This document shows, piece after piece, positions 4,214-15,354 of a stretch of 31,172 bases of DNA. Under the pieces are notes generated by a model, which was not told the origin of the DNA, searched no databases, and saw only the letters and a list, made by a program, of their open reading frames with translations. The DNA lies in IMG/VR virus record IMGVR_UViG_3300011116_000563, positions 1 to 31,172 of that record. One strand, 5' to 3'. The translations under genes and the position numbers were made by a program. Source of the stretch: a virus. Within the stretch, counting starts at the first letter, position 1, and each line of letters begins with the position of its first letter.

Positions 4214-4222
4214 CGTAGCATG
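4203..4222. repeat. Perfect inverted repeat over the -10 box and primase start codon
   Basis: CATGCTA (4203-4209) and TAGCATG (4216-4222) are perfect reverse complements separated by 6 bases. The repeat covers the whole TATAAT and the ATG. It could be an operator or an RNA hairpin hiding the start codon; the function is inference. Confidence 0.6.
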
Positions 4223-5182
4223 ATTGATGTGACTGCTTTCCTGCCAGCCAAAAGAAAACAAACCACTTCGGGCTGGATCAGTTTCAATGCTCCCTGCTGT
4301 GAACACCATGGCGAAAGCCGCGATCGTCGCCAGCGTGGCGGCATCAAACCCAGCACAGATGGATCATGGTCCTACCACTGTTTTAACTGTGGATTCACTG
4401 CCAGTTTTGTACTGGGTCGCACACTGACATTCAAGGCACGTAAGTTATTGAGTTGGATGAATGTGCCCCAAGAAGAAATAGAAAGAGTCAACCTAGAAAG
4501 TCTCCGACAACGTAACATAGAAGGCATACTCAGTGAACGGCAAGAGTTGGTCAACAAGTTACACAGCATTGAGTTTGAAGACCGTGACCTGCCCGCAGAT
4601 ACACAACCTTTGAACGAAACTGCACAACAATATCTCCAGGACCGTTGCATACCTACGGACTATCCATTCCTTTATAAAACCATGCCCAGACCAGGCATAG
4701 TGATTCCATTCACTCATGATGGACAGGTCGTGGGACACACCAATAGATTCCTGGATGATCGCACGCCAAAATACATACAAGATGCTCAGCCCGGTTATGT
4801 GTTTGGCACAGATCTACAACAGGTCGATTGGTCGTCGGTATTGGTCATGGAAGGAGTATTTGATGCCCTGAGCATCAATGGCCTGGCTGTGTTGCATGCC
4901 GATATCAATGATGCCCAGGCCAGACTGATCCGCAGTCTAGGACGTGACGTTGTAGTAGTACCTGACCAGGACGAGCCCGGCATGCGCTTGGTAGATCGTG
5001 CAGTAGAACTTGGCTGGGCAGTAAGCATGCCCGAGTGGCCTGCAGATGTCAAAGATGTCAACGATGCTGTGATTCGTTGGGGAAGATTGGCAACTTTGAT
5101 AACTATCTTGCAGGCCAGAGAAACCAGTCGAATTAAAATAGAACTAAGGAAAAAACAACTTGTTAAAAGATTACGGACTTGA
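4220..5182 (+). CDS. DNA primase, T4 gp61-like
   Basis: A 320-residue protein making RNA primers at the fork. A zinc-binding region lies at residues 26-57 (C26, C27, H29, H30, then C54-x2-C57 in HCFNCGF), followed by a TOPRIM domain with the Glu motif VLVMEGVFDALS (E211, D215) and the DxD motif VVVVPDQDEPG (D249, D251). Order and length fit T4 gp61-type primases of marine phages. It is directly followed, with a 23-base overlap, by the helicase, its partner in the primosome. ATG 4220 is preferred because MIDVTAFLPAKRK is the usual start of the family as I remember it; no Shine-Dalgarno exists and the promoter predicts a leaderless mRNA. Confidence 0.9.
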   Translation: MIDVTAFLPAKRKQTTSGWISFNAPCCEHHGESRDRRQRGGIKPSTDGSWSYHCFNCGFTASFVLGRTLTFKARKLLSWMNVPQEEIERVNLESLRQRNIEGILSERQELVNKLHSIEFEDRDLPADTQPLNETAQQYLQDRCIPTDYPFLYKTMPRPGIVIPFTHDGQVVGHTNRFLDDRTPKYIQDAQPGYVFGTDLQQVDWSSVLVMEGVFDALSINGLAVLHADINDAQARLIRSLGRDVVVVPDQDEPGMRLVDRAVELGWAVSMPEWPADVKDVNDAVIRWGRLATLITILQARETSRIKIELRKKQLVKRLRT

Positions 5183-6572
5183 AGTCCAACGCCTATTCTT
5201 AGAAATGATGTTGCAAGACGCAGAGTCGTATGTGCGTGTGCAGAACATCTACAACCCCGAAAACTTTGATCGTAGTTTGCGACCAGCAGCTGAGTTTATT
5301 GCCCGGCACAGTGACGATCACAAAACTCTACCGACCACAGAACAGATCAGTGCCAGCACAGGCGTAAAACTAAATCATATTCCAGACTTGAACGACGGAC
5401 ACTTTGAGTGGTTCATGGAAGAGTTTGAAAGCTTTACTCGTAGACAAGAACTAGAACGTGCTATCCTAAAATCTGCAGACTTGCTTGAAAAAGGCGAATA
5501 TGATCCTGTGGAAAAACTGATCAAGGATGCGGTACAGATCAGCCTGACCAAGGACATGGGCACAGACTACTGGTTAGACCCCCGAGAGCGTATCAACAAA
5601 TACTTTAACAGCGGTGGACAAGTTTCAACAGGTTGGCCGCAGATGGACAAGATCCTGTATGGCGGATTCAGCAGAGGTGAGTTAAACATATTCGCAGGTG
5701 GGTCGGGATCAGGCAAGAGCTTGGTCATGATGAACATAGCCTTGAGCTGGTTACAAGCAGGACTTAGTGGTGTGTATATCAGTCTAGAACTCAGTGAAGA
5801 ACTGTGTGCGTTGAGAACTGATGCCATGTTGTCAGGCATGAGTACCAAAGAGATCCGCAAGGACATAGACCAAACCGAGCTCAAAGTCAAGCTGGTAAGC
5901 AAAAAAGCCGGACAGTACAGGATCAAGGCCTTGCCGGCACAATCAAACATCAACGATATACGAAGCTATATCAAAGAAGTGCAAGTGCAAACAGGATTGA
6001 AAGTGGACTTTGTCATGTGTGATTACTTGGACTTGCTGATGCCTGTGAGTGCCAAGGTCAGTCCCAATGACCTGTTTGTCAAAGACAAGTATGTGAGTGA
6101 AGAACTGCGTAACTTGGCCAAAGAGCTCAATGTGTTATTTGTGACAGCAAGTCAGTTGAATAGATCGGCCGTGGAAGAGATTGAGTTTGATCACAGTCAT
6201 ATTAGTGGTGGTATTAGTAAGATCAACACAGCCGACAACGTGTTTGGTATCTTTACTAGCAGAGCCATGCGTGAGCGCGGCAAGTATCAGATCCAGTGCA
6301 TGAAGTCGCGTAGTTCAACAGGTGTGGGACAAAAGATCGATCTAGACTACAACATTGAAACCATGCGTATCACAGATTCAGGAGAAGAAGCAGGTCCGGT
6401 CAACGCTTTCAAGAAATCTGATATTTTAAGCAGTATTCGCACACAGAGTCGTGTCGGCTCCAGCACGTTGACACAAGATCCTGACAGTGTTGAAGAAGTA
6501 GACATAGGCAAAATTACTGCCGATGTGCAAAGTGCCAAACTTAAACAGTTGTTGGGAAAAATTAAAACATAA
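5160..6572 (+). CDS. Replicative DNA helicase, T4 gp41-like (DnaB family)
   Basis: A 470-residue protein, close to the length of T4 gp41. Translation probably starts at TTG 5160, 9 bases after AAGGA and inside the primase gene; the sequence LLKDYGLEVQ then matches the usual N-terminus. The RecA-type motor has Walker A GGSGSGKS (residues 180-187) and Walker B VDFVMCDYLDLL (about 282-293), with a glutamate-bearing VYISLELSEE and a VTASQLNR sensor-like motif. It acts as a hexamer unwinding the lagging strand with the gp61-like primase encoded just upstream. The TTG start with a 23-base overlap suggests coupled synthesis of the two proteins. Confidence 0.93.
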   Translation: MLKDYGLEVQRLFLEMMLQDAESYVRVQNIYNPENFDRSLRPAAEFIARHSDDHKTLPTTEQISASTGVKLNHIPDLNDGHFEWFMEEFESFTRRQELERAILKSADLLEKGEYDPVEKLIKDAVQISLTKDMGTDYWLDPRERINKYFNSGGQVSTGWPQMDKILYGGFSRGELNIFAGGSGSGKSLVMMNIALSWLQAGLSGVYISLELSEELCALRTDAMLSGMSTKEIRKDIDQTELKVKLVSKKAGQYRIKALPAQSNINDIRSYIKEVQVQTGLKVDFVMCDYLDLLMPVSAKVSPNDLFVKDKYVSEELRNLAKELNVLFVTASQLNRSAVEEIEFDHSHISGGISKINTADNVFGIFTSRAMRERGKYQIQCMKSRSSTGVGQKIDLDYNIETMRITDSGEEAGPVNAFKKSDILSSIRTQSRVGSSTLTQDPDSVEEVDIGKITADVQSAKLKQLLGKIKT

Positions 6573-7654
6573 TGTTCTGTAAATTCTTACACAATGGACT
6601 GGTATACAATAATGATTCTACACAAATTACAGTGGCACCTTGTTGTTATTACTCAAAAAAATCTACACTTACAGATTTACATTCTGTAGATTATTATAGA
6701 CAACTTTGGATCAAGTCCGATGTCAAAGAGACTTGTCGTGCATGTATTGATCAAGAAAGACAAGGTATTCCTAGTTATCGTCAAGCAAGTTTTGACATGT
6801 CAGAAAATTTATCAGGACAAATTGAAATTCTCACCGTGGCAACAACCAAACAATGTAATTTGGCTTGTGCAAGTTGTGATGCCGGACAAAGCAGTTTTTG
6901 GTATCAAGAAGATTTAAGAAATCAAGTCAATCATTCAGAACAAATACACAATCTACATCGTGAGGATAGACTCAAAGACACAACAAAAAAATTCATTGAT
7001 ATACTAGCCCAACAAAATTTGTCACAATTAAAATACGTGAAGTTTGGAGGTGGCGAACCAATGATGAGCAACATGCATGTTGAAATTTTAAAATTAATTT
7101 CAAACCCTCAAAATGTCACAGTTCAGTATACCACTAATTTTAGTATCATGCCGCGGCAATCGGTGTTTGAACAATGGCAAAAATTTAAACTTGTAAAATG
7201 GGTTGCCAGCCTGGATGGTACCCACGCTCAATTTGATCTATTGAGATGGCCACATACCTGGACAAAATGTACGGACTTTGCCAAACAAGCTCTGGCCACA
7301 GCGCCGCATAATGTTATGTTTGGCGTTGAACATACATTAAATCCTTTGAACATTTATTATTATGATAGATTTCAAGATTGGTTTGACCAACATTTCTCTA
7401 CAAATCGATATGGAGACGCCACTGATCTGAATCTACATCCTTGCATTGGAGTGCTGGCAATTGATCATACTCCCCCCGGAATTCGTGAATTAGTTAAAAT
7501 CAAGTACGGCAGAATGCATTCAATCTCGCTCATGCTTGATGATCATCCTTGGTCCGGGGACACGTTTAAACTGACCACTTATCTTGATCAATTGGACACA
7601 TGGCGGGCTCAAAATTGGCGTCACACATTTTCAGAAGTTGAAAGATATTTTTGA
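6572..7654 (+). CDS. Radical SAM protein with N-terminal twitch-like Fe-S region
   Basis: A 360-residue protein. The canonical radical SAM motif C95-NLA-C99-AS-C102 sits in TTKQCNLACASCDAG and would bind a [4Fe-4S] cluster that cleaves S-adenosylmethionine; GGGEP (149-153) is the usual SAM-contact strand. The N-terminus has extra cysteines (C3, C24, C25, C55, C58; VAPCCYY and CRACIDQE), as in 'twitch domain' radical SAM proteins found in phages and surface-polysaccharide loci. The substrate is unknown. It starts by TAATG overlap with the helicase, is AT-rich like its downstream neighbour and unlike the helicase, and so looks like an inserted cassette carried on the replication operon. Confidence 0.85.
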   Translation: MFCKFLHNGLVYNNDSTQITVAPCCYYSKKSTLTDLHSVDYYRQLWIKSDVKETCRACIDQERQGIPSYRQASFDMSENLSGQIEILTVATTKQCNLACASCDAGQSSFWYQEDLRNQVNHSEQIHNLHREDRLKDTTKKFIDILAQQNLSQLKYVKFGGGEPMMSNMHVEILKLISNPQNVTVQYTTNFSIMPRQSVFEQWQKFKLVKWVASLDGTHAQFDLLRWPHTWTKCTDFAKQALATAPHNVMFGVEHTLNPLNIYYYDRFQDWFDQHFSTNRYGDATDLNLHPCIGVLAIDHTPPGIRELVKIKYGRMHSISLMLDDHPWSGDTFKLTTYLDQLDTWRAQNWRHTFSEVERYF

Positions 7655-8375: not shown

Positions 8376-8624
8376 ATGCAGAAAAAAACAAGAAGTTTAT
8401 TAGAAGAATTAGATGCCATGTACATCCAGCGCGATCAGCGCCATGTGATAGAAACTCGCGCATCCAACGTCATCGCCAGTGCTATCAGACTGCTGGAAGA
8501 AATTGACGAATCTTACCCAGCTGAGCAAGCAGAAAATTTGAAGCGCAAACTGCTCAACGCCATCAACCAGCGTGACCCTGGCAAATTTACCCGCACAGTG
8601 AGGCGCACTGATGCAAATTCATGA
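8376..8624 (+). CDS. Small conserved helical phage protein
   Basis: An 82-residue protein, highly charged and probably all-helical (MQKKTRSLLEELDAM, RASNVIASAIRLLEEIDESY, LKRKLLNAINQRDPGKF). I recognise the RASNxIxxAIxLLExIxESY pattern as a small conserved protein of marine T4-like phages without known function. It is the first gene after a late box and overlaps the next gene by 14 bases, so it belongs with the late, probably head-related, genes. The start at 8376 is preferred over the other-frame ORF beginning at 8306, which is a shadow. Confidence 0.75.
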   Translation: MQKKTRSLLEELDAMYIQRDQRHVIETRASNVIASAIRLLEEIDESYPAEQAENLKRKLLNAINQRDPGKFTRTVRRTDANS

Positions 8625-9468
8625 AGTTACTATACCGCCTGCTGTAGGTAACCTGGCCAGGGGTGCCGTGCAAGGCGCAAAAAACTTGGGCCAACGTGCG
8701 GTCACAGCCATTGGTCAAACCGAGCCTTTTCAAAAAGCCAAAGCTGTATTGACCACACCCGGTGCTTTAACCACAGCTCGCGGCTACGGTGCGGCCATAG
8801 ACCAGGCCGAACGTGCTCAAGCTGACAAATACATGCAACAATATCAGCAACAACTTGCACAGCAGACACAACAACATGCTAAAAAATTGGTCCAAGGCTG
8901 GGTCAATCACGTGAAAGCCTCGGGCATCAATCCGGCCGCACCCACAACCCGTGCTGAACCCGGTCAAATGCCTGCCGATGTTGCGGCCAGTGCCCAAGGA
9001 CAAAAAATGCAACAGGCATATGGACCGCCTCGAGGCGGAATCCAGGGCATGCAATCTGATGATCTCAAAGAACAAACTGGCTCCGACAACGTGATAGATC
9101 AATTCCGGAAGTGGTCGGATTCGCAACTAACCGGCCAGATCACCGGTACACGTAACCAAGTCAGCATGGACGACGTCAGACAAGATCCAACTGAAAAAGC
9201 CAAACTAGATGCCATATTGGGTCGTATAGCCCAAAAGCCCGACGATGCCGCGGCAGTGGAAGAATATTTGACCACAGCCATGCAGGCCATGCAACGCATC
9301 TCAGCAGAAAAAAGGGCCAGCCTGGGCATACCTCGTGGCGCAACTGCCGCCACCGGCGACGAAATCTTGCCGCGATACATACCACCTACACAGTTGGAGG
9401 AACTCAAACAACTGGCCAAAAACCCTCAGGTCGCCGCAAAGATTAAAAGTGAACTGGGCATAAGATGA
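8611..9468 (+). CDS. Candidate internal head protein with capsid-targeting-like N-terminus
   Basis: A 285-residue, Ala/Gln-rich protein with no recognised enzyme domain. It begins MQIHE-VTIP: an Ile-x-Glu at residues 3-5 fits the (L/I)-x-E cleavage rule of the T4 prohead protease gp21, and the position matches the short capsid-targeting peptides of T4 (Alt begins MELITE). Residues 65-110 form a Gln-rich predicted coiled coil (QADKYMQQYQQQLAQQTQQ), and the C-terminal third is helical (LDAILGRIAQKPDDAAAVEEY). It lies between two late genes and overlaps both (14 bases upstream, ATGA downstream). Packaging in the head is inference; a scaffold or tail protein is an alternative. Confidence 0.6.
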   Translation: MQIHEVTIPPAVGNLARGAVQGAKNLGQRAVTAIGQTEPFQKAKAVLTTPGALTTARGYGAAIDQAERAQADKYMQQYQQQLAQQTQQHAKKLVQGWVNHVKASGINPAAPTTRAEPGQMPADVAASAQGQKMQQAYGPPRGGIQGMQSDDLKEQTGSDNVIDQFRKWSDSQLTGQITGTRNQVSMDDVRQDPTEKAKLDAILGRIAQKPDDAAAVEEYLTTAMQAMQRISAEKRASLGIPRGATAATGDEILPRYIPPTQLEELKQLAKNPQVAAKIKSELGIR

Positions 9469-11345
9469 TGCGCTTGAACGAAGGTGGCAACGTATTCAAA
9501 GATCAAGATGGGCGTAGTCTCACGCAACGCATCCGTCAGACTGACGTAAAGTCTACTCTGGCCTGGTTGGAAGAACTGGTGCCTGGCCTGGATCTACAAA
9601 ACAACACTCTTGGCAGCACCGGCATCCGAGATACTTCGGGTGATCTAGACATTGCCGTGGATACTGCCGAGGTCAGCAAAGAGCAAATGGTAGCACAGCT
9701 CGCACGCTGGGCACAGAGTCACGGATTCAAACCTGAAGAATGGGTTCGCAAATCTGGTACCGCGGTGCATTTCAAAACACCCATCAACGGTCGCCCAGAT
9801 CTGGGATTTGTGCAGACCGACTTCATGTTTTTAAACAATGTGCCTTGGTCAAAGTTTGTGTTGGGTGCCATGCCCGCAGATAGCAAATACAAGGGCAAAG
9901 AACGCAACGTGCTGATGAATTCCATAGCCAAAAGCCTGGGCTACAAGTTAAACCAGATAGCTGGTATTGCCGATCGTGAGACCAACAAAATCATTTCAGA
10001 TGATCCTGATGCTGTGGCCAAGATGTTGCTGAACAAGACAGCCACACGGCAAGACTTGGCTTCGGTGGAAACAATCCTGCAAGCCCTCAGCACAGACCCC
10101 GAACGTGAAGCCAAGTTGGCCGACTTCCGTGAACACATGAAGCGTGAAGGCCTGCCTTTCTTAGAAAGCGCCGAACTATATCGTCCTGTGAGTGATGTGC
10201 ATTTTTTAGCCAAGCTGAGAGATCGCATAGTAAACCAAGGCATGCAACCATTGATTGAAAGTACCTTGATGGAAGCCGAAGCTAGAATACCACACATTGA
10301 AGATCTAGTGTTTGATCGTGGTACACGTGGCATCGAAGAAGCCATGGCCATCATACGGGCAGCCGCCGAAGACACTAGAAAAACCACCACGGTCAAATGG
10401 GATGGCAAACCTGCCATCATCTGGGGCCGTGACGAACAAGGTCGTTTTGTTCTTACAGACAAGAGCGGATTTGGTGCCAAGGGCTATGCAGGCCGTGCCA
10501 CCAGCATGGCGCAACTGGCCGGTATCATGAGTCAACGTGGTGGCGAACGTGGTGAATTGATCGGCATCTATGAACGACTATGGCCCATGCTGGAAGCGGC
10601 CACACCCGACAACTTCAAGGGATATGTTCAAGGCGACTTGCTGTATACTGAAACTCCGCCTGAAGTGTCGGGCAACTATGAATTCAAACCCAACTTTGTG
10701 GAATACCGTATTCCAGCCTCCAGCAAACTAGGCCAAGCCATTGGAGCCAGTGAAGTGGGCATAGCTGTACATACCAGATACAAAACTGCTGACGCCACAG
10801 CCGAACCCATAAGAACAACGAATCTAGATCCAGTACCAGGTCTGCTCATCGTCGAGCCCACGGTCAAAGACATCCGGAATGTCACACCCAACAAAAAACT
10901 CGTAGATCAACTGCGTGCAGTGATCAGCTCGCACGGTGCCGACATCAACGGTCTGTTCAATCCTGGCGAGCTACGGGCCGCACAGCTCAGCGATTTGCCG
11001 GCGCTTTGCAAACGCTACATCAACAGCAGGATCACCACAGACTATGAAAATCTCCTGCCGGACTTTGGTGCTTGGTTGCAGAAAAATGTCACACCAAGAA
11101 AATACAACAACATAGTGGAATACCTGCAGAGCCCCAGAAGCAACATGTCGGGCATCACAGCCGCATTTACAGCGTTCTTGCTACTACACGAAATCAAAAT
11201 GGACATGCTGGCACAGCTGGATCGCCAGCAACCCGGACAAGAAGGCTGGGTCTTGGCCACCGACGCCGGACGTGCCAAGCTGGTAAATCGCTTTGGATTT
11301 TCGGCCGGAAACCGTATCTTAAACAACCCAAATCTAGTGACCTAG
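9465..11345 (+). CDS. Two-domain nucleotidyltransferase / ligase-like protein, probable internal head protein
   Basis: A 626-residue protein. Domain 1 (about 20-215) has a nucleotidyltransferase signature: LGSTGIRDTSGDLDIAVD with D60 and D62, and a third acid D119 in FVQTDFMF. Domain 2 (about 270-560) resembles a T4-like phage family related to ATP-dependent ligases (DUF6267-like in my memory): VKWDGKPAIIWG has K311-x-D-G like ligase motif I, followed by TDKSGFGAKGY and QGDLLY (389-394). The N-terminus MMRLNE-GG and the linker LIE-STLME-AEA (263-271) contain (L/I)-x-E sites as cut by the gp21 prohead protease, so it may be packaged and processed into two parts. Substrate unknown; ligase catalysis is not proven, since the later ligase motifs are unclear. 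Confidence 0.75.
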   Translation: MMRLNEGGNVFKDQDGRSLTQRIRQTDVKSTLAWLEELVPGLDLQNNTLGSTGIRDTSGDLDIAVDTAEVSKEQMVAQLARWAQSHGFKPEEWVRKSGTAVHFKTPINGRPDLGFVQTDFMFLNNVPWSKFVLGAMPADSKYKGKERNVLMNSIAKSLGYKLNQIAGIADRETNKIISDDPDAVAKMLLNKTATRQDLASVETILQALSTDPEREAKLADFREHMKREGLPFLESAELYRPVSDVHFLAKLRDRIVNQGMQPLIESTLMEAEARIPHIEDLVFDRGTRGIEEAMAIIRAAAEDTRKTTTVKWDGKPAIIWGRDEQGRFVLTDKSGFGAKGYAGRATSMAQLAGIMSQRGGERGELIGIYERLWPMLEAATPDNFKGYVQGDLLYTETPPEVSGNYEFKPNFVEYRIPASSKLGQAIGASEVGIAVHTRYKTADATAEPIRTTNLDPVPGLLIVEPTVKDIRNVTPNKKLVDQLRAVISSHGADINGLFNPGELRAAQLSDLPALCKRYINSRITTDYENLLPDFGAWLQKNVTPRKYNNIVEYLQSPRSNMSGITAAFTAFLLLHEIKMDMLAQLDRQQPGQEGWVLATDAGRAKLVNRFGFSAGNRILNNPNLVT

Positions 11346-11366
11346 ACTGCCATTTTGGCCAAAACT

Positions 11367-11374
11367 CATAAATA
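11367..11374 (+). promoter_or_regulatory. T4-like late promoter (CATAAATA) with strong ribosome-binding site downstream
   Basis: CATAAATA matches seven of eight consensus positions. AAGGAG at 11403-11408 lies 6 bases before ATG 11415, the best Shine-Dalgarno of the late region. Confidence 0.75.
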
Positions 11375-11414
11375 AAAGTAGGTCCTTTGTGACCATATAT
11401 TAAGGAGAATTAAA

Positions 11415-11840
11415 ATGGCTTATATCACCCCCGTATCTGGTGGCGCACAACCAGTATTTGCAACCGACGTTCGCAACCCAGTTGCAGCAGGTTCCACAGC
11501 AGTTGGTCAACCAGTAAACCTTGCTGGTCCCAAGTTAGACTTTTATCGCGTTGTTGCCAACGTATCTCTTGCTGCTCAGCAAGATGTCAACGAATACGTT
11601 TCTAACTGTATTCAAGGCATCCAGCGCACATCCACAGTGGCCATGTATCAGCTGGACACAGTTGGTGGTGTTGGCGTACTCAGCTTCGGCATTTACCCAA
11701 CAGGTGCATTTGGCGACTCTGCTGCCAATCCACCCACAACCACAGACACCACAATCTTCTTGGCAGCTGCCAACGTCACCTACACAGGTGTACAGTTGGA
11801 TTCTTGCCAGAGCTTGGGTTTCAAATTGGCTGCATCCTAA
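11415..11840 (+). CDS. Probable abundant virion protein, single-gene late unit
   Basis: A 141-residue protein of Ala, Val, Thr and Gly with beta-strand character (KLDFYRVVANVSLAAQQ, GVGVLSFGIYP) and no cysteine pairs or charged clusters. I do not recognise the family with certainty; the composition and the start MAYITPVSGGAQPVFATD resemble small virion proteins of T4-like cyanophages. It is isolated between its own late promoter, a strong Shine-Dalgarno and a clean terminator, an arrangement expected for a protein made in high amount, such as a head decoration or tube-type protein. That role is inference. Confidence 0.7.
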   Translation: MAYITPVSGGAQPVFATDVRNPVAAGSTAVGQPVNLAGPKLDFYRVVANVSLAAQQDVNEYVSNCIQGIQRTSTVAMYQLDTVGGVGVLSFGIYPTGAFGDSAANPPTTTDTTIFLAAANVTYTGVQLDSCQSLGFKLAAS

Positions 11841-11861
11841 TCGAATATATCGATTGCAAAC

Positions 11862-11883
11862 AACCCGCTTCGGCGGGTTTTTT
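11862..11883 (+). terminator. Rho-independent terminator
   Basis: AACCCGC (11862-11868), a TTCG tetraloop and GCGGGTT (11873-11879) form a perfect 7-bp stem, running into six T (11878-11883). It ends the single-gene unit of the 141-residue protein. Confidence 0.93.
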
Positions 11884-11884
11884 G

Positions 11885-11922
11885 TTGACTTATACAGCCC
11901 TTGTGTTACACTAGCTTAAATA
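11885..11922 (+). promoter_or_regulatory. Overlapping early-type and late-type promoters
   Basis: A possible sigma70 promoter, TTGACT (11885-11890), 16 bases, TACACT (11907-11912), lies just ahead of a late box CTTAAATA (11915-11922). The late box ends 5 bases before ATG 11928, so late transcripts would be leaderless. Confidence 0.5.
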
Positions 11923-11927
11923 CTCTC

Positions 11928-12182
11928 ATGCAGGTCAGCAAAATCACAGAACTCACAGTGTTTGAAAGTCCCGACGGTGGACGCACTGTGTATGCCAGAA
12001 AGCCCGGAAGCACTCACAGAGAACTGCACTGGCAGGATCCCAACCTACAGCGTGAGCTGGCTGAACTGGAAGCACAAAAACGCTGGGTAGATATTTTTTC
12101 AGCCCGCCGTGACAATGTGGAACTGGATCATCTGTGTGAACAGGTAGAGATCATGTATGAACTGGGTCGGAAAAACACATGA
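11928..12182 (+). CDS. Small conserved phage protein with capsid-targeting-like N-terminus
   Basis: An 84-residue protein. I use ATG 11928 rather than 11901, because the late box and possible -10 lie between them and the shorter form starts MQVSKITE-LTVFESPDGG. The TVFESPDGGRTVYARKPGS pattern is one I know from small conserved proteins of marine T4-like phages. Ile-Thr-Glu at residues 6-8 fits the prohead-protease rule (L/I)-x-E, so it may belong to the internal head set; alternatively this is coincidence in a short helical N-terminus. No Shine-Dalgarno is present. The stop overlaps the next start (ATGA). Confidence 0.72.
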   Translation: MQVSKITELTVFESPDGGRTVYARKPGSTHRELHWQDPNLQRELAELEAQKRWVDIFSARRDNVELDHLCEQVEIMYELGRKNT

Positions 12183-12607
12183 GATTTGCTTGCCAGACCT
12201 TGTTTGACATCACGGCCACAGGCGTGACCGGCCACTGCCGCACACAACGCTTGCCATTCCAAGACCGTGCCGGTCAATTGATCACGGATCAACGGTCCTG
12301 GGATCGTGCCCGGAATCAACAACGCAACTGGGAAACCCTGCAACAGATCCTGGGTCTGCGCACACAGTTGGTTGAGGTCACAGATCCCATAGCAGATCGC
12401 ACCGGCACACGCTGGATGTTTGAGTTTGAAAGTGATAGACCTGGAGTGTTTGGTCCTAACGCAGATCCTGTGGCAGTTTTGCGAGAGGATGCCCATGGTG
12501 TGCCCATGTTGCGTGAACTTGACAATGAGCCTGACCTGGACCCTTTCTTAGTGACCAAGGGCCCGCGCCAGAATATCTGGTTTGTACCTGTGTCCATAAA
12601 TACATGA
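12179..12607 (+). CDS. Conserved T4-like phage hypothetical protein
   Basis: A 142-residue protein with the recognisable block FDITATGVTGHCR followed by LPFQDRAGQ and RARNQQRNWETLQQ, a pattern I associate with a conserved hypothetical gene in the late region of marine T4-like phages. No enzyme motif, signal peptide or membrane segment is visible. It overlaps the upstream gene by ATGA, and a late box for the next gene (12595-12602) lies inside its 3' end. Confidence 0.75.
   Translation: MRFACQTLFDITATGVTGHCRTQRLPFQDRAGQLITDQRSWDRARNQQRNWETLQQILGLRTQLVEVTDPIADRTGTRWMFEFESDRPGVFGPNADPVAVLREDAHGVPMLRELDNEPDLDPFLVTKGPRQNIWFVPVSINT
12595..12602 (+). promoter_or_regulatory. T4-like late promoter (CATAAATA)
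   Basis: CATAAATA lies at the very end of the preceding gene; GGAGA at 12609-12613 serves as ribosome-binding site for ATG 12620, giving a leader of only about a dozen bases. Confidence 0.7.
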
Positions 12608-12619
12608 TGGAGACACAGC

Positions 12620-12883
12620 ATGGTTGAGCCCACTGACATCGAAAAGAAAAGCCTGGAAGCACACGTGGAACTGTGTGCTGAACGCTATAATGCCCTGGAA
12701 ACCAGGCTGGATCATGTGGATGCCAAGATCTCCAGTCTTTCTGATGTGATCCGAGAAGTGCATGACATGGTGCAACGCATGAGCGAAAAACGCACAGATC
12801 AACTCATTGGCTGGGGTGTGGGCCTGATTGGTGCCCTGTCAGCCACGGTAATATATCTAGTCACACATTACGTATTAAAATGA
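12620..12883 (+). CDS. Small coiled-coil protein with C-terminal membrane anchor
   Basis: An 87-residue protein. Residues 5-58 are a charged amphipathic helix (IEKKSLEAHVELCAERYNAL, VIREVHDMVQRMSEKR), followed by one transmembrane helix (LIGWGVGLIGALSATVIYLV). The pattern KKSLEAHVELCAERY...SEKRxDQLIGWGxG is familiar from T4-like phages. The topology (cytoplasmic coiled coil, C-terminal anchor) would suit a membrane-associated lysis regulator or assembly factor, but no function is established. It has its own late box. Confidence 0.75.
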   Translation: MVEPTDIEKKSLEAHVELCAERYNALETRLDHVDAKISSLSDVIREVHDMVQRMSEKRTDQLIGWGVGLIGALSATVIYLVTHYVLK

Positions 12884-13377
12884 CAAGCGAACGCGAAGTA
12901 GAACGGGCATTCCGCCAGGAATTCCGAGATCTCATGCCCAATGTGATCTGGCAAAACGATGATGGTGTGTACGAAGTTTTTGGACGCTACAGGATACAGC
13001 CCGAATCTCGAGGATTCCGGGTGTTTTGTAGTGCCACAGATGTGGGTGTGTTTGCCACCACAAGGACAGCACTAAGCTGGTGCATAGCCGACAAAAACCA
13101 AGCCTACAACACAGCACGAGAACTCTTGACCACTGACAACAAATTGGCCGCGCTGACTGCAGACATAGCCACACGTGCTGCCATTGGAGATCGCAGCCGT
13201 GATCCTGCTCTACGTGAAACCATTTTAACCAAGCTGGAAAGCAAGATCATACACAAAAAACACCTGGAAAATCAACTAACCAAATATGTAAACTGGGCTA
13301 AATATTCGCAACAACGAGGATTCGAAGATGAAACTGCAAGAACTGGCCGTGGCCACCCCAACAAAACAAGCCGCTAA
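12880..13377 (+). CDS. Conserved T4-like phage hypothetical protein
   Basis: A 165-residue protein that begins with an ATGA overlap and ends 50 bases inside the next gene in another frame. The N-terminal half is alpha/beta with the block VYEVFGRYRIQPESRGFRVF and CSATDVGVFATTRTALSWCI; the C-terminal half is a charged helix. I do not know a function. The extended overlap with a good ORF is unusual, but both frames have coherent protein-like composition, and the late box of the downstream gene (13297-13304) lies inside this gene. Confidence 0.7.
   Translation: MTSEREVERAFRQEFRDLMPNVIWQNDDGVYEVFGRYRIQPESRGFRVFCSATDVGVFATTRTALSWCIADKNQAYNTARELLTTDNKLAALTADIATRAAIGDRSRDPALRETILTKLESKIIHKKHLENQLTKYVNWAKYSQQRGFEDETARTGRGHPNKTSR
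13297..13304 (+). promoter_or_regulatory. T4-like late promoter (GCTAAATA)
   Basis: The late box lies inside the preceding gene; GAGGA at 13316-13320 follows and ATG 13328 starts 7 bases later, a normal promoter/ribosome-binding-site arrangement. Confidence 0.65.
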
Positions 13378-14266
13378 GGTATTTGAAAACTACTTTGGCG
13401 ATCGTGTGAATTTTGAGCAGGTCTCTGCCCAACAGGCCAAAGGTATGTTGCGTCGTGTGCGTGCTACCATAGCCGAACACCGCAGAACTCCTGAATTTCA
13501 CCACAGTGAGCGCAACCCTGCCTATCTTAAACTTGTGGTCATGGAACAGGCCTTGGCCGCACGTGTCATGGAACAACCAGTGGGCATGAGCACTGCCTCA
13601 ACAGCAGCCGGTACCGGTGCCTATATCGACAACATGCCCAATGCCCAAAGCACCACGGGCACCACAGGCAACATGCAGAAACAACAAGCGGCCATGGCCC
13701 TGCAACGGCAACAAAAACAACGTCAACTAAGTGATGAAGAAAAACAGTTGACAAAACAAAGCCAAGACATTGCAGCAAGAAAAGCTGCCATACAAAAAGA
13801 AAAAGCCATGATGGAACGTCGTGGTTCATTGAAACAACGTTTGAAAGAAGCTTCAGAAGTTCAACAAGCTCAAGTAGTGCTGGCCAGCCAAGACATGGTT
13901 GACCAAGTGCAGAAAATGAGCGAACAAGTCAGTGCCATGCAGTTCAAGGACCTGCCAGCCCTGGTAGATTCAATCAAGAACGAAGTTGGTGTAGATCAAG
14001 CCATGCAGTTCAACACCGATGCCACAGCGGCTCTAGCAGGCTTGTTGCAAAATCTACAAGGCGCCAAGACACAGTTGGAAGCTGCCTTGGGTGTGGTCAC
14101 AGGTCAAGCTCCTACAGTACCCGGCGCTGACATGGGTGCCGCAGATGCTGGACTTGGCGGCGAAATGCCAGCTGAATTACCAGCACCCGGAGAAGAAGAA
14201 ATTGATGTCACTGACATAGATGTAGAAGAGCCAGCCGCTGCTGGACTAGGCCGCGAGCGTAGATAA
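13328..14266 (+). CDS. Candidate scaffold or internal head protein, Gln-rich coiled coil
   Basis: A 312-residue protein. It starts MKLQE-LAVATP: Leu-Gln-Glu at 3-5 fits the gp21 cleavage rule. Residues 14-80 contain the pattern VFENYFGDRVNFEQ and FHHSERNPAYLKLVVMEQAL, conserved in marine T4-like phages; residues 115-230 form a long Gln/Lys/Glu coiled coil; the C-terminus is Gly/Ala/Pro and then strongly acidic (GEEEIDVTDIDVEEP). Coiled coil plus an acidic tail and a capsid-targeting-like start would suit a prohead core or packaged protein. That is inference; no mass-spectrometric support is available here. Its stop overlaps the next ATG (TAATG). Confidence 0.7.
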   Translation: MKLQELAVATPTKQAAKVFENYFGDRVNFEQVSAQQAKGMLRRVRATIAEHRRTPEFHHSERNPAYLKLVVMEQALAARVMEQPVGMSTASTAAGTGAYIDNMPNAQSTTGTTGNMQKQQAAMALQRQQKQRQLSDEEKQLTKQSQDIAARKAAIQKEKAMMERRGSLKQRLKEASEVQQAQVVLASQDMVDQVQKMSEQVSAMQFKDLPALVDSIKNEVGVDQAMQFNTDATAALAGLLQNLQGAKTQLEAALGVVTGQAPTVPGADMGAADAGLGGEMPAELPAPGEEEIDVTDIDVEEPAAAGLGRERR

Positions 14267-14601
14267 TGCGGATCACGGAAGTCACTGATCCCAACACACG
14301 AAAACTGGCTGCCTTAAGCCAGTTTTTGCTTGGCCGTAGCGAAGATGAATCCGCACGCAAACAGATCAGTCAAGACGCATTTATAGAAGCTGCCAAAAGT
14401 CTGGGAGTGAATGTCACCAGCGAAAATCTTGGCGATTTGATCAGCCAGGAACCTTTGAAAAATATCTTGGAACCCCTGGAGCCAAATTCTGGTGTGGTAC
14501 GTTTCAAAGGTGATACTGAAGCCCAGACCGGAATGAGTGTGGATCAAGCACGAGCTGTGGTAGATAGCAATGCCAAGGCCGCAATGAAGCGCCGCCAATA
14601 A
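14266..14601 (+). CDS. Small candidate internal head protein
   Basis: A 111-residue helical protein beginning MRITE-VTDPNTRKLAALSQF. Ile-Thr-Glu at 3-5 fits the prohead protease rule (L/I)-x-E, as in the gene before it. The rest is Ala/Ser/Glu-rich, with no cysteine and a basic end (AAMKRRQ). No known domain. The TAATG overlap with the coiled-coil gene suggests the two are made in fixed proportion. It is the last gene before the dual promoter of the iscU unit. Confidence 0.7.
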   Translation: MRITEVTDPNTRKLAALSQFLLGRSEDESARKQISQDAFIEAAKSLGVNVTSENLGDLISQEPLKNILEPLEPNSGVVRFKGDTEAQTGMSVDQARAVVDSNAKAAMKRRQ

Positions 14602-14657: not shown

Positions 14658-15050
14658 ATGGCCTATTCTGAAAAAGTAATCGATCACTACGAAAATCCCA
14701 GAAACGTGGGCAAAATGGATGTAGGCGACGTCAATGTAGGTACTGGCATGGTAGGTGCGCCGGCCTGCGGTGACGTTATGAAACTGCAAATAAGAGTAGA
14801 AGATGGAATCATACAAGATGCGAAATTCAAGACTTACGGTTGTGGCTCGGCTATTGCGTCGAGTTCGTTGCTCACGGAGTGGGTCAAGGGTAAAACTCTG
14901 GAGCAAGCAGGCAAGATTAAGAACACACAGATTGCAGAAGAACTTGCCCTACCGCCGGTTAAAATCCACTGTTCAATCCTTGCGGAAGATGCTATTAAGG
15001 CTGCCATAGAAGATTACAAGAGAAAACATCTAGATGATACAAGCCACTGA
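14658..15050 (+). CDS. iscU: Fe-S cluster scaffold protein IscU
   Basis: A 130-residue protein with all hallmarks of bacterial IscU, on which [2Fe-2S] and [4Fe-4S] clusters are assembled from IscS-derived sulfur. C37 and D39 (GAPACGDVMKL), C62 (YGCGSAIASSS), H104 and C105 (KIHCSIL) are the cluster ligands, and LPPVK (98-102) is the HscA chaperone recognition motif. Length and sequence are close to E. coli IscU, so it is probably functional and able to use the host's IscS and HscA/HscB. It has its own promoter and overlaps iscA by 17 bases. Acquisition from a proteobacterial host is likely; it counts as an auxiliary metabolic gene. Confidence 0.97.
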   Translation: MAYSEKVIDHYENPRNVGKMDVGDVNVGTGMVGAPACGDVMKLQIRVEDGIIQDAKFKTYGCGSAIASSSLLTEWVKGKTLEQAGKIKNTQIAEELALPPVKIHCSILAEDAIKAAIEDYKRKHLDDTSH

Positions 15051-15354
15051 TACAGCTTCACGCAAAATAGTAGAAAATCTACAACGCAGGGGTCGCGGCT
15101 TGGGCATACGTCTTGGTGTGAGAACCACAGGTTGTAGCGGCTTGGCTTATGTGCTGGAATACATCGATCAAGTCAACAGCGAAGACATGGCCTTTGACAT
15201 GAAAGACTTTGTGATAGCGGTAGATCCCAAGAGCATGACCTATCTCCAGGATGTAGAAATAGATTATGTGCGTCAAGGTCTCAACGAAGGCTTTGAGTTC
15301 CGCAACCCTGTAGAAAAAGACCGCTGTGGTTGCGGAGAAAGTTTCCGAGTTTAA
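15034..15354 (+). CDS. iscA: Fe-S cluster carrier protein IscA
   Basis: A 106-residue A-type carrier. The three conserved cysteines are present: C34 (TTGCSGLAYV) and the pair C98-G-C100 (DRCGCGESFRV). RLGVRTTGCSGLAYVLEYID and VRQGLNEGFEFRNP match E. coli-type IscA rather than SufA-like or phage-degenerate forms. A-type carriers move clusters from the IscU scaffold to apo-proteins, mainly [4Fe-4S] targets. The overlap with iscU keeps the chromosomal U-A order, but no iscS, hscA, hscB or fdx is present, so the phage presumably supplements the host machinery. Confidence 0.96.
   Translation: MIQATDTASRKIVENLQRRGRGLGIRLGVRTTGCSGLAYVLEYIDQVNSEDMAFDMKDFVIAVDPKSMTYLQDVEIDYVRQGLNEGFEFRNPVEKDRCGCGESFRV

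Follow-up and report, generated by a model that had tools for sequence, protein, structure and literature searches.

Short, probable capsid-targeting leaders of T4 type on predicted cargo proteins of an uncultured giant T4-like phage

In an uncultured giant T4-like phage, five neighbouring genes begin with short peptides that very probably act as T4-type capsid-targeting and gp21-processing leaders on injected cargo. An earlier note on this DNA had claimed such tags, and the claim was supported by conservation of the leaders, by the gp21-family protease that close relatives encode and by tagged proteins in the virion proteomes of two cyanophages. According to the proposed mechanism, the leaders would, during head assembly, draw proteins that otherwise have nothing in common into the core of the prohead; a gp21-type protease would then remove the leader by cleaving behind the Glu of (L/I/V)-x-E, and the mature cargo would stay in the DNA-filled head and be ejected from it into the next host cell. 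For this phage we infer packaging, cleavage and injection, with the cargo presumably acting in early takeover of the host or in protection of the incoming DNA. Systems of this kind, with T4 capsid targeting and gp21 processing, are already known; the literature searched appears to contain no report of one in this phage group, nor of its short leaders and its cargo. Related genomes also have similar tags at other sites, on further genes.

The tagged block

The stretch of DNA analysed (the window) is the entire record IMGVR_UViG_3300011116_000563, of 31,172 nt. This 31-kb fragment stops short of the head module and contains no protease gene. It was compared with 80 related loci in IMG/VR, some of them on contigs of 317–343 kb. 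The five tagged ORFs belong to a single run of genes on the + strand, with the following features (a slash marks a candidate cut).

8611..8625, + strand: leader MQIHE, with V next; conserved in 51 homologues; overlaps the ORF at 8376–8624 by 14 nt
8611..9468, + strand: cargo candidate 1, 285 aa, Ala/Gln-rich and variable, evolving like internal proteins
9465..9482, + strand: leader M(M)RLNE, candidate cut before GGNVFKD; [LIV]xE in 33 of 33 distinct leaders
9465..11345, + strand: cargo candidate 2, 626 aa, predicted fusion of a nucleotidyltransferase and DUF6267 (PF19782, invariant residues, AlphaFold, Foldseek)
11928..11963, + strand: leader MQVSKITE/LTVFE/SPDGG, with two candidate cut sites (short homologues)
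11928..12182, + strand: cargo candidate 3, 84 aa, no known family
13328..13342, + strand: leader MKLQE/L; MKL(Q/N)EL in 14 of 14 distinct N-termini; overlaps the ORF at 12880–13377
13328..14266, + strand: cargo candidate 4, 312 aa, with a match to a PHROG of virion structural proteins
14266..14280, + strand: leader MRITE/V; M1 and E5 kept in each of 27 sequences
14266..14601, + strand: cargo candidate 5, 111 aa, helical with a basic COOH-terminus (family alignment)

All five starts given in the earlier note (MQIHE-V, M(M)RLNE-G, MQVSKITE-L, MKLQE-L and MRITE-V) were found in the sequence, and the P3 residues, in order I, L, I, L and I, follow the strict (L/I)-x-E rule. The five proteins are, as had been stated, alike only in this start, their bodies having no significant similarity to one another. 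The neighbouring genes at 11415, 12179, 12620 and 12880 in the same run do not have a start of the (L/I)-x-E type. The block is flanked upstream by a primase-like gene at 4220 and a DnaB-helicase-like gene at 5160, which we take by eye to be replication genes, and downstream by genes at 14658 and 15034 that, again by eye, are presumably iron-sulphur genes. A radical-SAM-like protein (6572–7654) and IscU/IscA-like iron-sulphur genes (14658–15354) were also noticed near the block, by eye only. No exact T4-like late promoter TATAAATA was found before the block, and only weak one-mismatch sites lie nearby, such as CATAAATA at 11367.

The loose form of the motif, M.{0,6}[LIVM].E, is present at 47 of the 345 predicted genes of a 337-kb relative (~14%), compared with 10% after an internal Met, and at 8 of the 42 gene starts within the window, three of which (at 8376, 15326 and 26405) are unlikely to be tags. 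In its strict form, M(M)x[LIVMF]xE, the motif marks 14 of the same 345 genes (4.1%, versus 1.7% after an internal Met) and four of the ten genes of the block (P = 3e-4). Given that the loose form occurs in ~14% of genes and that the strict form is also found on clear non-cargo, for example an iron-sulphur protein starting MITVTES, the motif count alone was dropped as proof of tagging. Conservation of the leader among relatives is instead the decisive evidence.

Conservation of the leaders

The earlier note had proposed that an alignment of homologues might show the first residues kept and the rest diverging, and this was seen in several independent families. For the 9465 family, 33 different leaders of 4–8 residues were found over 68 readable loci (examples being MRLNE, MNVFE, MKQIVE, MSTSLFE, MTYHVITE and MIGILKE), and each ends in [LIV]xE directly before the invariant GGN.FK of the body (GGNVFKD in the window). 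Position P2 is unconstrained, with 12 residues occurring there. All six Leu, three Ile and three Val codons are used at P3, and both GAA and GAG at P1; given this synonymous variation, the constraint acts on the protein. One copy (L060) has no leader and starts M-GGNVF.

In the 14266 family, all 27 sequences have an [LIV/M]-x-E start, with M1 and E5 invariant and I, L, V or M at P3, whereas residues 6–20 vary in kind and number, so that Glu5 is isolated inside a length-changing stretch. In the 11928 family, the leader pattern is present in 19 of 21 cases, and the short homologues begin MTYIFE/SPDGG, MPKIYE/SPDGG and MSFIYE/SPDGG. By these short forms, the second site of the window protein, VFE/S, may be the working cut site. 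The 13328 family has MKL(Q/N)EL at all of its distinct N-termini listed above. One homologue, at L061:13502–14347, reads MIMKLHDL (MKLHD-L), and its P1 residue is Asp. A P1 Asp in T4 IPIII blocks processing and leaves packaging unaffected (PMC9026906).

The string MQIHE is present in 51 of 51 copies of the 8611 family, these copies having been found with that string, and in 18 of the 20 distinct N-termini of an unbiased homologue list. A further [LIV]xE follows at residue ~11–16 in most 8611 homologues; the window copy is without the usual (L/V)xE/G second site. From the sequences, the second (L/I/V)xE in both the 11928 (VFE/SPDGG) and the 8611 (LDE/G) families may be as good a cut site as the first, or a better one. 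The 8611 bodies are mostly only 19–40% identical in phages whose adjoining 9465 body is 57–93% identical. A kept leader with a diverged body recalls the internal proteins of T4, which are described as very diverse and as conserved in the targeting sequence alone (PMC3012670).

Not all of these families count equally. The start of 13328 overlaps the ORF at 12880–13377 by 50 nt (13328–13377), and its leader is thus encoded in two frames. Since the 8611 and 13328 leaders both overlap upstream ORFs, their conservation is not independent evidence and is partly explained otherwise. The 9465, 11928 and 14266 leaders are essentially free of overlap.

These overlaps, together with the Glu of the 9465 family abutting the invariant GGN.F and the fact that M-x-L-x-E is common by chance, are what might be expected if the Glu and the hydrophobic residue were part of a folded domain or reflected a translation-start preference, with no protease involved. 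We consider this explanation very improbable. The copy L060, Atu_ph07 gp65 and a Phosso homologue all start M-GG without the Glu; the leaders differ in length and sequence while P3 and P1 are kept; Glu5 of the 14266 family stands alone in a variable stretch; AlphaFold pLDDT is below 50 at residues 1–4 of the 9465 protein and 4–6 of the 14266 protein; and the pattern is common to several unrelated families.

Protease, head module and virion proteins of relatives

A gp21-family prohead protease (PF03420, E about 1e-26, above the cut-off) is encoded by the relatives G001 and G002 (337 and 317 kb), and one PF03420-bearing relative encodes a 9465 protein ~91% identical to that of the window. PF03420 was not found in a third relative contig, G003, which may be incomplete. 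Judging from gene names that we assigned by eye, the protease presumably sits in a T4-like head module. In the major capsid protein of G001, LRE/N immediately precedes the part that resembles the folded domain, where a cut site would be expected. T4 gp21 itself cleaves after L/I-x-E (PMC9026906).

The same protease and motif also process core proteins (PMC9026906), and the tagged proteins might therefore be parts of the prohead core or scaffold, comparable to T4 gp67, gp68 and gp22; they would then be fragmented and lost from the head instead of being injected. The 13328 protein, given its coiled-coil-like character, its acidic tail of low complexity and its match to a virion structural PHROG, would suit such a role, and G001 has a tagged small gene (MILKEIYERS) between portal and protease. 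We nevertheless regard this origin as distinctly unlikely. In the 337-kb relative, the head module includes core genes of its own, ~260 kb from the tagged block, and the block itself adjoins replication genes. The 8611 protein evolves far faster than a scaffold needs, and at least one member, 9465, appears from its sequence to be a two-domain enzyme with invariant residues of catalytic type.

Leaders of other families in three large relatives include MRASEFIVE, MKNFQEYLAE, MRAREFLAE, MRAREFITE and MNIHEL. In G002 (266855–270148; L117:6855–10148), four genes in a row start MRAQEFLAE, MRSDEFISE, MRFSEFVAE and MRAQEFLLE; by sequence, this run of long leaders of T4-like form may mark another cargo-like cluster. 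A 1851-aa protein of G001 with the MNIHEL start (L094:115–5667) has an N-terminal nucleotidyltransferase domain as well as an amidoligase domain and is polyvalent-protein-like; its orthologues of 1545 and 1373 aa retain an MNI(H/N)EL start.

Ten genes in a row in the cultured Agrobacterium phage Atu_ph07 start M(K/R)WxxL(T/N/I)E, close to gp65, which is related to the N-terminal domain of the 9465 protein and starts directly at GG without a leader. With gene numbers aligned via clpX (gp2) and topoisomerase (gp4–5), the tagged genes (gp53–gp62 and gp67; L138:39484–49507 and L139:3224–3943) fall inside the cluster CDS 31–76, for which mass spectrometry (MS) detected 29 products in virions as a cluster-level count; 131 virion proteins are given for the phage (PMC6102473). 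Domains noticed among these proteins are a zeta-toxin-like kinase domain in gp53 and a weak large-polyvalent-protein domain (LPD3) in gp67, and several members of 250 aa have a PLYRG-like motif that resembles ADP-ribosyltransferases by eye. The Atu_ph07 cluster gp53–gp69 resembles the window in that the nucleotidyltransferase homologue gp65 and the RNA-ligase-like gp66 lie beside ten (L)xE-leader genes in a cluster rich in virion proteins. It differs from 9465 in that the two domains are separate and gp65 begins at GG.

DUF6267 proteins elsewhere occur with a leader, as in HTVC008M (MYNDLLVE/DKNTHLEHLEDD), Melnitz (MINFSKYITE/DKGG) and DLP_6 (MMKFTQFLAE/SKD), or without one, as in S-WAM1, S-SZBM1 and P-TIM40, which start M(S/A)KNTHLEHLED. 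The leader therefore behaves as a module that is gained and lost across phages.

We compared the leaders with the virion proteome of the cyanophage S-CREM2 (Table 3 of PMC10665884), with 52 detected and 167 undetected proteins. A leader of the MKxFxSFLTE type is present in six of the 52 detected proteins, all six non-structural, and in none of the 167 undetected ones (P = 1.4e-4), a figure that is descriptive because the pattern was picked after the sequences had been viewed. The leaders include those of the SAM hydrolase (MKDFDSFLEE), two small uncharacterised proteins, gp13 and gp136 (MKDLHSFLTE and MQTFSMFFSE), an APH-like kinase (MKRFDAFLTE) and a cytidylyltransferase (MKNFSSFLTE). The loose motif is modestly enriched, being present in 10 of 28 non-structural virion proteins versus 26 of 167 undetected proteins (P = 0.015). 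The S-CREM2 paper does not mention targeting peptides (PMC10665884). The sixth of the tagged proteins detected in S-CREM2 virions, the Cas9-like gp12 (L141:7704–10313), contains RFASFMAE/AA ~18–25 residues from the annotated start, which suggests that it bears a capsid-targeting leader, possibly behind a mis-annotated start. In S-SZBM1, the tagged cytidylyltransferase (MRFRQFIIEA) was detected in virions, and the leaderless DUF6267 protein adjoining it is absent from the virion table (PMC9146016).

These cyanophage enzymes (cytidylyltransferase/NMNAT, SAM hydrolase and APH-like kinase) resemble the window proteins in that their leaders end in (L/I)xE and MS places them in particles, and S-CREM2/S-SZBM1-type cyanophages share the genomic neighbourhood of DUF6267. 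They differ in having long-form leaders, with cyanophage DUF6267 usually being leaderless.

The window leaders share with those of T4 IPI, IPII, IPIII and Alt the N-terminal position, the L/I-x-E cut rule, unrelated bodies behind one leader type and fast-evolving cargo behind a conserved leader, with a gp21-family protease in the relatives. They differ in being mostly of a short, 5–6-residue form (including MRLNE, MRITE and MQIHEITQCKLDE), with relatives also having the longer MRAREFLAE type. Residues 1–10 of T4 IPIII suffice for packaging, with residues 8 and 10 (P3 and P1) setting processing (PMC9026906). The short form is without the longer upstream half that carries targeting in T4 IPIII (residues 4 and 7; PMC9026906), which raises the alternative that the prohead protease cuts these peptides and other parts of the proteins bring them into the head. 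That the peptides have no targeting role is, in our view, unlikely: the propeptide of T4 Alt is also very short, at seven residues (PMC9026906), and in both S-SZBM1 and S-CREM2 detection in virions goes along with having a leader. Ejection proteins of the phiKZ/SPN3US type likewise are head cargo that the prohead protease cuts after Glu and that is then injected (PMC9026906), but they have another motif (S/A-x-E in phiKZ) and a distantly related protease.

Predicted cargo and its significance

The predicted cargo of the window differs from that of T4 and includes a polymerase-X-like/ligase-like fusion and small proteins of no known family. The 9465 protein matches DUF6267 (PF19782) in a profile search. 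Given that its sequence profile had no real match among solved structures, a fold search was performed with an AlphaFold model (pLDDT 84). Residues ~20–230 contain a GS...(D/E)xD-type domain of the polymerase-beta superfamily with D60, D62 and D119 invariant, and Foldseek matched pol lambda/beta (prob 1.0, E 1.8e-3, TM-score by target 0.32–0.45). This region is thus predicted, on the model, to be a polymerase X (pol beta superfamily) nucleotidyltransferase. In residues ~275–620, which correspond to DUF6267, K311-W312-D313-G314 (KWDG) is invariant and resembles the KxDG lysine motif of ligases. Structural matches of this region were weak for DNA ligase 6wbo (prob 0.35) and for viral RNA/DNA ligases (prob up to 0.77), and that for Atu_ph07 gp66 reached prob 0.96; gp66 itself has a sub-threshold RNA_ligase match in Pfam, and the DUF6267 profile did not match it.

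Given polymerase-X-like and ligase-like domains that in Atu_ph07 are split, with the nucleotidyltransferase domain (gp65) a separate gene beside the RNA-ligase-like gp66, we tentatively propose that the 9465 protein is an injected end-processing enzyme. On this proposal, which we hold to be possible rather than probable, the phage head would carry a polymerase-X-like/ligase-like enzyme that heals DNA (or RNA) ends, with a minimal leader, and inject it with the genome, so that ahead of any phage gene expression it would fill, seal or protect the DNA coming in, or repair nucleic acid that host defences have cut. No report of a packaged polymerase-ligase-like enzyme was found in the literature searched, and DUF6267 is nowhere named there.

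The 13328 protein matches phrog_14154 (virion structural protein) over residues 153–295 (E = 2.7e-13). Neither it nor the 14266 protein, whose AlphaFold model is of low confidence (pLDDT only 68), has direct sequence relatives in the phage collection, and no known family was found for the 8611, 11928 and 14266 proteins.

If the leaders act as proposed, a peptide readable from sequence would tell which of the unknown proteins of T4-like phages travel in the head and are first into the cell. Many genes of uncultured phages that are now called 'hypothetical' could then be put forward as coding for injected proteins of takeover or anti-defence, and new ones could be sought where a conserved leader precedes a rapidly evolving body. 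The finding would also point to a packaged polymerase-ligase-like enzyme.
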